Part shown: one piece after another, positions 9,000 through 10,817 of the stretch | How positions within the stretch are numbered: position 1 is the stretch's first letter | How the letters are laid out: every line of letters begins with the position of its first letter | Assembly: GCA_022573895.1 (NCBI GenBank) | Contig: JACZTB010000007.1 | Coordinates: 1 to 62,399 of the forward strand | Reading direction: 5' to 3' | From: Nitrososphaerota archaeon | GTDB taxonomy: Archaea > Thermoproteota > Nitrososphaeria > Nitrososphaerales > Nitrosopumilaceae | DNA length: 62,399 nt | The notes under the pieces: model-generated | Told to the model about the DNA's origin: nothing | Database searches by the model: none | Seen by the model: only the letters and a program-made list of their open reading frames with translations | Made by a program: the position numbers and the translations under genes

Positions 9000-9229
9000 T
9001 ATATTATTTTTAACCAAATTTGTTTAAAAATGATCACAGATTAAAAATTTAGAAATTAAAATAGAGAAATTAAAATTGAAAGCAGGCTCGATGATTATAT
9101 CTGACCTCTTATTTCCAAGTCAATCATAATCCAAATGCAGTGATGATTAGGTCAACTGAATCAAATGTAGAGATATGACCTGGGGTATCTGACTGCATAA
9201 TTGGTTACGTTGTAATTACCTGACTATTA

Positions 9230-9254
9230 ATAGTACGGTACCATACCGTACTAT
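9230..9254. promoter_or_regulatory. 11-bp palindrome, candidate operator
   Basis: Perfect arms ATAGTACGGTA (9230-9240) and TACCGTACTAT (9244-9254) flank CCA. The right arm ends one base before the ATG of the Cys miniprotein at 9255, and a TATA-like ctattaata overlaps its left edge. This position between TATA box and start is where an archaeal repressor would block transcription. Confidence 0.55.
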
Positions 9255-9362
9255 ATGATTCAATGTGAATTTTGTACAAGAGGGTTTATTGAAACAATAA
9301 ATGGTTTGGCCGAAAAGACCTTCCATGAATTACTTCATGAGCCACAAGTTGTAAACAAGTAA
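9255..9362 (+). CDS. Small CxxC protein behind a palindrome
   Basis: ATG at 9255, TAA at 9360-9362, 35 residues. It starts MIQCEFCTRGFIETINGLAE and continues with a helix KTFHELLHEP. The CEFC pair plus two downstream His (H24, H28, spacing HELLH) could complete a four-ligand zinc site, a compact CCHH arrangement. The gene directly follows a perfect palindrome, so it is likely regulated. No family is recognised. Confidence 0.6.
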   Translation: MIQCEFCTRGFIETINGLAEKTFHELLHEPQVVNK

Positions 9363-9422
9363 CTCTTTACATTTTTTATTTTAGACCTAACTTTTTTATC
9401 ATCAAATTTTTAATTTAATCAT

Positions 9423-10817
9423 ATGACTAAAAAGACTGTAAAGAGAAAAACAGCTAAAGTAGCAAGTCAAACAAGAAAAATTACAAAAAGAGAGCCAAGT
9501 CCATCTGTATTACTTAAAAATGTTGCATCATTTTCGAATTCTAACAAAGCATTACAAAAAGAGATCAAAGTAATGTCAAAAATTTTTGGTGAAAACCAAA
9601 AAGTCCTAGTATCAATGAAAGGAATGATAGATTCACTAACATCGACATTAGAACATATTCAAAAACAATCAAAACAAATCAACATTATAGAAGCAGATAC
9701 ACAAAAACTATACGCAGGATTAAATCAAGTAAGGACACAATCTAATCTAGTCAATAAGATCAATAACCAAACTGCTAAATTGCAAGGAGAGATAAACAGA
9801 ATTTCTGATTTCCAAAAAACATCAAAGTCAGTATCTCAACAAGTAAAAGACAGCATAGATTCAATTAAAAATAATTCTCAAATGATTATCAAAATTGCTC
9901 AGAGAATTGATGATGTAAGAGATGAGCTTAGGAAAGTTTCTGGAAAAGCAGACTCATTTTCAGAGATTAGTTCTGAAATAGGTAAACTAAAAAACAGCAT
10001 AGAAGAGATTTCAGGAAAAACTGGAGAAACAGAGACAGGAACTCAAATTGTTGAAAGTCTTAAACAAGAACTTGGAAAAATTGTTGAAGGAACAGCATTT
10101 ACTTCAAATCTTAATGCTGAATTAGAGGCAATTAAGATCACAATTGATGCAATATCTTCTAAAGCCTCAAAAATTGATTCGTTAGGAGGCATAATTGATG
10201 GCCTGAAACAACAGTTTGACACTATAGCATTAAAGACAAATTCTGTAGAGGGTTTAAGCTTAGAATCTATCAAAGAACTTGAAGGTAAAATTAATAGTAT
10301 TGAACAAAAAATGGCTTCAGTTTCAGACATTGTAAAAAGACAGGATGCATCAACTGCAGAATTTCATAAAAAATCTGAAAAATTATTTGAAGAGATGCAA
10401 GATGTCAAAAATGTTACAAGCAAGGCATCAAGTAATTCATCACAAGAGATGATGGCGTTGTTAAAGCTTTCAGAATATCAATCAAGTATTAGAATGAATG
10501 CAGAATCAAAGTATGGAGATTCAAAAGATCTTGAAAAGATGGCGTCTCAGACTGCAAATATTGTTAATCTGTTTGATAGAATTTCAATAGAATTAGGTGA
10601 AAAGATTCCACTTCCTTATGAAGTAAGACAATGGGCAATAAGTAAAATTTTTGATTGTGCTGACAAGTGGGAGATTCGATTTAGTGATGTTTATTCAATT
10701 TTAACAAATGCAATTGGGAGAGACATGTTCAAAGAAGCAGTAAGAATTCAGCAAGTAAGAGACATTTATGGAATTAGAGCAGTAGATGAAATTAGAAATG
10801 ATCTAAATATTTCTTAA
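9423..10817 (+). CDS. Long coiled-coil protein
   Basis: The 464-residue protein has a basic Thr/Lys N-terminus (MTKKTVKRKTAKVASQTRK), then about 300 residues of heptad-like helix with many Ser/Asn/Ile and no Cys or Trp (for example INRISDFQKTSKSVSQQVKD), and a compact C-terminal domain from about 370 (IPLPYEVRQWAISKIFDCAD, IRFSDVYSILTNAIGR). No Walker motifs, so it is not an SMC ATPase. No signal or membrane helix is visible. It converges on the glycosyltransferase gene with a 4-base overlap. It could be a cytoskeletal or chromosome-organising scaffold; nothing in sequence proves that. Confidence 0.8.
   Translation: MTKKTVKRKTAKVASQTRKITKREPSPSVLLKNVASFSNSNKALQKEIKVMSKIFGENQKVLVSMKGMIDSLTSTLEHIQKQSKQINIIEADTQKLYAGLNQVRTQSNLVNKINNQTAKLQGEINRISDFQKTSKSVSQQVKDSIDSIKNNSQMIIKIAQRIDDVRDELRKVSGKADSFSEISSEIGKLKNSIEEISGKTGETETGTQIVESLKQELGKIVEGTAFTSNLNAELEAIKITIDAISSKASKIDSLGGIIDGLKQQFDTIALKTNSVEGLSLESIKELEGKINSIEQKMASVSDIVKRQDASTAEFHKKSEKLFEEMQDVKNVTSKASSNSSQEMMALLKLSEYQSSIRMNAESKYGDSKDLEKMASQTANIVNLFDRISIELGEKIPLPYEVRQWAISKIFDCADKWEIRFSDVYSILTNAIGRDMFKEAVRIQQVRDIYGIRAVDEIRNDLNIS

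Follow-up and report, generated by a model that had tools for sequence, protein, structure and literature searches.

A perfect palindrome that directly precedes a 35-codon gene in a Nitrososphaerota archaeon is best explained, with a probability that we put at roughly 0.7, as the operator of a small family-specific regulon, which an autoregulated winged-helix (wHTH) protein with a MarR/PadR fold would repress and which has the 35-aa miniprotein among its targets. The site is conserved, is fixed in its placement, is nearly restricted to the promoters described below and co-occurs with the wHTH gene. It lies in a contig (C83) of a 1.80-Mb genome, and this whole stretch of 62,399 nucleotides is here called the window; the features around the site are collected in Table 1.

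Table 1. Features at and around the palindrome (positions in the window; a dot stands for no strand)
Feature	Position	Strand	Remark
C/D box sRNA (probable)	9136-9196		upstream of the zinc-finger gene
Second conserved palindrome, GGTTACGTTGTAATTACC	9203..9220	.	ends 13 bp before the operator core
TATA-like box, TATTAATA	9225..9232	+	centre about 26 bp 5' of the ATG; overlaps the left arm
Perfect 11-bp inverted repeat, ATAGTACGGTA-CCA-TACCGTACTAT	9230..9254	.	arms 9230-9240 and 9244-9254
Operator core, TACGGTA-CCA-TACCGTA	9234-9250		inside the 9230..9254 repeat
Gene of the 35-aa C2H2-like zinc-finger miniprotein, putative operator target	9255..9362	+	
Gene of the 464-aa coiled-coil protein	9423..10817	+	60 bp downstream of the zinc-finger gene

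The initial annotation had described a perfect 11-bp palindrome whose arms flank CCA before an ATG and overlap a TATA-like box, and this description holds: the ATG at 9255 directly adjoins the end of the palindrome (9254), with zero bases between. In the window this is the sole perfect 11-bp inverted repeat with a loop of up to 10 nt, and TACSGTANNNTACSGTA with up to 2 mismatches is matched there twice (one match being the exact 9230-9254 site), compared to 0.03 matches expected from shuffles. Both 11-bp arms around any 3-bp loop, with up to 3 mismatches, occur at a single place in the genome, and the 17-bp core has two more exact sites there besides 9234-9250. The conserved part is this core, TACSGTA-N3-TACSGTA, composed of two 7-bp units whose centres lie 10 bp, or one helical turn, apart, a spacing expected for a winged-helix dimer bound in two successive major grooves. 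In a gap-free alignment of 80 zinc-finger loci at the ATG, the spacing of the TATA-like box, the two TACSGTA units and the ATG is fixed in nearly all, and the box itself shows T at -28 in 78/80 and A at -26 in 76/80 loci. The position of the box would fit a leaderless archaeal transcript, with the presumed start at the ATG, and the palindrome does lie, as the initial annotation had proposed, where a bound repressor would block initiation. A chance palindrome was ruled out by the conserved placement in 80 loci, the uniqueness and the shuffle expectation of 0.03, and a general core-promoter element was rejected because exact cores number 0-4 per genome.

An 11-bp perfect stem with a 3-nt loop could also function in the RNA, as a hairpin at the transcript's 5' end. 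The core frame is intact in 66 loci; comparing the central letters between their two units gives a pair in 44, G-T in 5 and no pairing in 17, and each unit is itself TACSGTA. Such variation suits two 7-bp DNA units, each symmetric in itself, better than a stem in RNA. Moreover, the radA and wHTH sites described below mostly end in ATG, so that a leaderless mRNA would not contain the hairpin. Given the lack of pairwise covariation in the central letters, and given where the site lies at radA and the wHTH gene, we reject the hairpin as very improbable; in its sequence, the 9230-9254 palindrome varies as a DNA operator would.

The 35-aa product carries the two motifs in which the initial annotation had recognised a single zinc site, CEFC and HELLH, as C4-EF-C7 and H24-ELL-H28. 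Among 42 homologues, M1, C4, C7, F11, G17 and H24 are invariant and H28 is conserved in at least 90%, and an AlphaFold2 model (pLDDT 86) shows a strand pair followed by a helix at 15-28, in line with the predicted one-zinc miniprotein; judging from sequence and model, the product probably binds one zinc. Compared with two solved chains, the model matched one (9nwt_C, Z 3.4, 2.1 Å, 28 residues), and the best match of the zinc-finger profile among solved structures is 7znf (E 0.009). The usual C2H2 spacing is C-x2-4-C-x12-H-x3-5-H, and the spacing here, C-x2-C-x16-H-x3-H, falls outside it; the miniprotein also stays below the gathering cut-off of the classical C2H2 models (PF00096 and relatives). 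Pfam zf-C2H2 matches 1 of the 42 homologues, with a best E of 0.12, and we call the miniprotein "C2H2-like" because the Pfam C2H2 models match weakly. Its sole own match in Pfam is Fer2_2 (E 0.006), below the cut-off; an Fe-S protein (Fer2_2 in 13/42 homologues) was considered and set aside, the match covering residues 2-22 and the model resembling a zinc finger. A spurious reading frame was likewise ruled out, by matches in 177/200 family genomes (E up to 1) and by variation biased to the third position: codon positions vary 7/3/30 among 29 genus sequences, whose pairwise comparisons together yield 3604 synonymous versus 441 nonsynonymous codon differences of a single base.

Within a class sample of 200 genomes, the miniprotein is confined to one archaeal family, presumably the Nitrosopumilaceae: its profile is positive in 109/116 family genomes, with two marginal matches in the 84 others. 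The division of this sample into 116 genomes inside and 84 outside the family was read from the relatives-first order of the wHTH and zinc-finger results, in which 68 and 69 of the genomes without a match, respectively, do not appear. Five divergent fingers, those of G001, G010, G023, G029 and G049, are part of the profile (A2), so that their profile E-values are circular; beyond their sequence, these fingers are supported by a downstream homologue of the coiled-coil protein (L077-L080) or by the upstream sRNA motif (L081). In a 42.6-kb viral contig (IMGVR_UViG_3300030061_002489, L317:544-1106), a homologue of the zinc finger was found (56% over 25 residues), which shares four bases with the end of a 150-aa ORF whose C-terminus looks wHTH-like by eye.

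The core is shared by a handful of other promoters. Among the family genomes with the zinc finger, 26 were hand-chosen with a view to completeness and spread; in these, exact cores make up 74 sites in 25 genomes, versus 2 for the reversed control. Conservation of palindrome and reading frame, which the initial annotation had put forward as a check on its proposal, is thus borne out for both, with the reading frame matched in 177/200 family genomes and the core common to 25/26. The exact sites belong to the zinc-finger gene (22), radA (19), the gene of the 115-aa wHTH protein (14) and a gene for a small CxxC protein (18), with 1 elsewhere (L121); each of the 52 sites not belonging to the zinc finger was inspected individually, L160 being the zinc-finger site of G058. 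The recombinase gene radA is hence under the common operator sequence in 19/26 genomes, plus the genome of the window, whose exact cores are that of the zinc-finger gene, that of radA and one flanked by trpE and a 62-aa CxxC protein gene, and which has a core with one mismatch at the wHTH start. Placement is again regular, the ATG beginning at the last base of the site in 15/19 radA and 12/14 wHTH loci; at the CxxC gene, the site precedes the ATG by 31-35 bp in most cases and a TATA-like box stands between the two, and trpE is found on the opposite side of this site in 14/18 loci. As to the identity of these genes, RadA matches its NCBIfam model at E 1e-148, TrpE matches TrpE-arch at E 3e-142, below that model's cut-off and with both Pfam domains above theirs, and the small CxxC/CxxH protein keeps C-x2-C and C-x2-H in 17/17 aligned sequences. 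PHROGs, searched at E 0.1 with the window, wHTH and CxxC proteins, gave no match.

In the later-scanned G010, G020, G034 and G037, exact sites stand at the same target genes, bar one in G037. This exact core (L311:285-301) lies three bases 5' of the GTG of a 448-aa Orc1/Cdc6-like ORF, with Cdc6_lid and Cdc6_C above cut-off. The core at L121:1561-1577, in G002, stands before a 43-aa ORF near a contig end, which has no Pfam match. Both genes are possible extra members of the regulon. Enrichment is limited to exact sites, and inexact ones are uninformative: with up to 2 mismatches, the genome of the window has 9 sites versus 30 for the reversed control, and with up to 1 mismatch the counts against control are 5 vs 4 in G019, 6 vs 5 in G034 and 9 vs 9 in G194. 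One-mismatch sites were therefore counted solely at known targets, and those at L086 (genome of the window) and in G194 (control 9 vs 9) were dropped as chance-level.

Among the recurrent targets, the 115-aa wHTH protein (C82:47448-47792 in the genome of the window) is our candidate for the reader of the operator. Its AlphaFold2 model (pLDDT 77) is a winged helix, in which residues 41-112 form the winged helix with a C-terminal helix (ten-residue blocks 41-110 with mean pLDDT 82-91), and the N-terminal 40 residues are modelled at low confidence. The fold matches MarR (3voe; Z 12.7, 1.4 Å, 74 aligned) and archaeal RosR of H. salinarum (6ez1; Z 12.6, 1.6 Å, 76 aligned), and it matches PadR structures as well. 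These repressors are thus its best fold matches, from which the wHTH protein differs by its extra N-terminal 40 residues, and an autoregulated dimer on a palindrome is the usual way in which repressors of MarR/PadR/RosR type work. In Pfam and NCBIfam, the wHTH protein gave sub-threshold matches alone (DUF4364, HTH_45, Sso10a and others), no MarR/PadR family being reached; its profile gave a best E of 0.11 against solved structures, and in viral contigs no wHTH homologue was confirmed.

The wHTH gene was found in 107/116 family genomes of the class sample, with five marginal matches in the 84 others, and carries the operator with at most 1 mismatch in 79/79 usable named loci (58 exact, 1 exact with N4 spacing, 20 with one mismatch), the named loci being the best 80 of 144, one of them cut at an edge. 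With the wHTH gene as the regulator profiled against operator presence, the core was sought in 38 genomes: each of the 30 that possess the gene has exact sites, at least 1 of them away from that gene, and 0/8 without it have any (Fisher p 2e-8, a value that overstates independence because the losses cluster in few lineages). These losses, of wHTH gene and operator, fall in genera g2, g15 and g11 and a few g1 genomes, several of them incomplete; with hand-chosen genomes and losses in few lineages, the scans are not independent tests. The zinc-finger site behaves alike. Among five genomes with the finger and no wHTH gene detected (L030, L077, L079, L080 and L081), it is degenerate in four, with 2, 3, 3 and 5 mismatches, versus 0 (63 loci) or 1 (12) in the other 75 zinc-finger loci, which include genomes of unchecked wHTH status. 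The intact operator at L030 alone belongs to G198 (90% complete), whose exact zinc-finger site is an exception to the co-occurrence, perhaps from an assembly gap.

The initial annotation had suggested that the miniprotein is autoregulated, and it is indeed conceivable that the palindrome is bound by the finger, which would thereby control the other targets as well as its own gene, given that its model is C2H2-like and its own promoter has the operator; the viral single-finger C2H2 protein AFV1p06 is described as binding DNA in the accessible part of the report (PMC3541406). However, the same operator stands at radA, the wHTH gene and the CxxC gene, and G020 (90% complete), in which no zinc finger was found, has retained the exact site at both radA and the wHTH gene; a finger candidate there (E 0.34) was treated as absent, with which the profile search agrees. 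Furthermore, the zinc-finger site has degenerated in four of the five genomes that have a finger and no detected wHTH gene, and one 35-aa finger seems small for a palindrome of 17-25 bp. Autoregulation by the miniprotein is consequently not upheld, and we regard this reading as quite improbable.

Alternatively, another transcription factor or a TFB/TBP variant might read the operator, the wHTH gene being a mere target that disappears together with the rest of the regulon. In favour of this, the wHTH gene does count among the targets, an identical profile would arise if targets were lost jointly, and G001, with no wHTH gene, retains a one-mismatch site 9 bp before radA. On the other side, the wHTH protein is the one of the four recurrent targets with the fold of a DNA-binding regulator, and four genomes without its gene retain the zinc finger with a decayed site, and we hold this alternative to be unlikely. 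A third variant accepts the wHTH protein as repressor and makes the zinc-finger (or CxxC) miniprotein an antirepressor or co-repressor under the same operator. In the class sample, wHTH gene and finger are both confined to the family, where they occur together in 105/116 genomes and are both missing in 5 (Fisher p 1.6e-5, subject to the same clustering of losses), and the viral finger homologue directly follows the 150-aa ORF with the wHTH-like C-terminus; however, of the 116 family genomes, 4 show a finger with no wHTH gene and 2 the reverse. Such feedback may occur, with a likelihood that we judge similarly low.

In the favoured reading, with the wHTH protein as autoregulated repressor and the miniprotein as a target, a dimer of the 115-aa protein would bind TACSGTA-N3-TACSGTA, its recognition helices spaced by one turn of the DNA. 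Sitting between the putative TATA box and the start of the zinc-finger, radA and wHTH genes, the dimer would keep RNA polymerase off, and on its own promoter it would limit its own synthesis. At the CxxC gene, where the site adjoins the upstream side of the TATA-like box, TFB/TBP would be blocked, or the site, lying upstream of the box, could serve activation instead. A signal that releases the wHTH protein would then cause RadA, the two tiny zinc-site proteins and more wHTH protein to be made together, along with TrpE in genomes with a divergent trpE. For the two zinc-site miniproteins, roles as effectors or in feedback are conceivable.

The zinc-finger promoter probably has an additional input. 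The second palindrome has the form GGTNAY-N6-RTNACC, which was found upstream in 62/80 zinc-finger loci and within 60 bp of 0/51 radA, wHTH and CxxC sites, and its columns are well kept (74/80 zinc-finger loci have G at -52, and as many have C at -36); in its own genome it occurs at 4 places versus 3 for the reversed control. It is a possible upstream activator site of the zinc-finger promoter. At L038, a block similar to this palindrome is repeated. Downstream, a homologue of the 464-aa gene follows on the same strand in 75/80 zinc-finger loci and possibly is co-transcribed with the zinc-finger gene; in Pfam its product gave weak coiled-coil matches alone. Further upstream, the probable C/D box sRNA comprises a C box GTGATGA (9140-9146), a D' box CTGA (9156-9159), the guide CCTGGGGTAT and a D box CTGA (9189-9192). 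The motif GGGGTATCTGA lies within 200 bp upstream in 47/80 zinc-finger loci, 46 of them with the C-D'-D order. Rfam, searched at 9000-9500, gave three sub-threshold matches alone, with sR14 among them for the sRNA, and as a target of the guide no exact GATACCCCAGGT was found elsewhere in the genome.

A short motif common to radA and a handful of other promoters has been described before in an archaeon. In Halobacterium NRC-1, the UV-B motif TTTCACTTTCA is common to radA1, top6B, vng17 and vng280 and was proposed as the site of a regulator in the DNA-damage response, according to the accessible part of the report, which names no regulator (PMC2556686). Like the operator here, it is shared by radA and few other promoters, but that motif is of another sequence, non-palindromic and upstream of the TATA box (PMC2556686), whereas the operator here is palindromic, lies over the presumed start and has other partner genes and a candidate regulator. 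The same source, as far as accessible, describes Sta1 of Sulfolobus solfataricus as an activator of sso0777, a radA paralogue (PMC2556686). Like the wHTH candidate, Sta1 is thus a DNA-binding regulator of an archaeal radA-family gene, and it differs in being an activator with a different site, the likeness being one of description alone. Sta1, too, is a winged-helix protein. A further archaeal DNA-damage promoter motif is A(N)TTTC of Sulfolobus, a UV motif which the available part of its source gives as non-palindromic, at -39 to -44 and in 214 genes (PMC5817253), in contrast to the few genes and the site at the start here. Tiny archaeal zinc-finger proteins are also known, in the accessible parts of their reports, from the Haloferax u-proteins (PMC6562870), Halobacterium Brz (PMC2253796) and AFV1p06 (PMC3541406); the 35-aa finger, likened to them by description alone, differs in its confinement to one archaeal family in the sample and in being tied to a common operator.

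What the circuit responds to may be approached from its targets. RadA, plus the Orc1/Cdc6-like gene of G037, point to DNA metabolism, and TrpE would, speculatively, fit photodamage, since tryptophan absorbs UV. Archaea are described, in the accessible part of the source, as being without a LexA-regulated SOS system (PMC1224876). As a tentative idea, which we consider rather doubtful, the circuit might be an independently evolved SOS-like response of the Nitrosopumilaceae to genotoxic or UV stress, where the wHTH repressor would co-control RadA, an Orc1/Cdc6-type protein in at least one genome, two miniproteins serving in feedback or as repair cofactors, and often tryptophan synthesis.

An autoregulated winged-helix repressor with a small regulon is a known kind of circuit, whereas the present regulon, with its operator and its restriction to one family, appears to be new; in the open-access literature, judged by titles and abstract openings, no description of operator or regulon in these organisms was recognised. 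To our knowledge, only a few transcription factors or regulons have been described in ammonia-oxidising archaea, a group of great importance for marine nitrification. For one whole family, an exact operator, its few targets and its likely regulator are now given, so that binding and induction are directly testable with short DNA and the 115-aa protein. The regulon also gives context to a 35-aa protein matched in 177/200 family genomes, and if radA is under a compact autoregulated circuit, this would matter for the control of recombination in archaea. If true, the SOS-like reading would concern archaea that are among the ocean's most abundant ammonia oxidisers.
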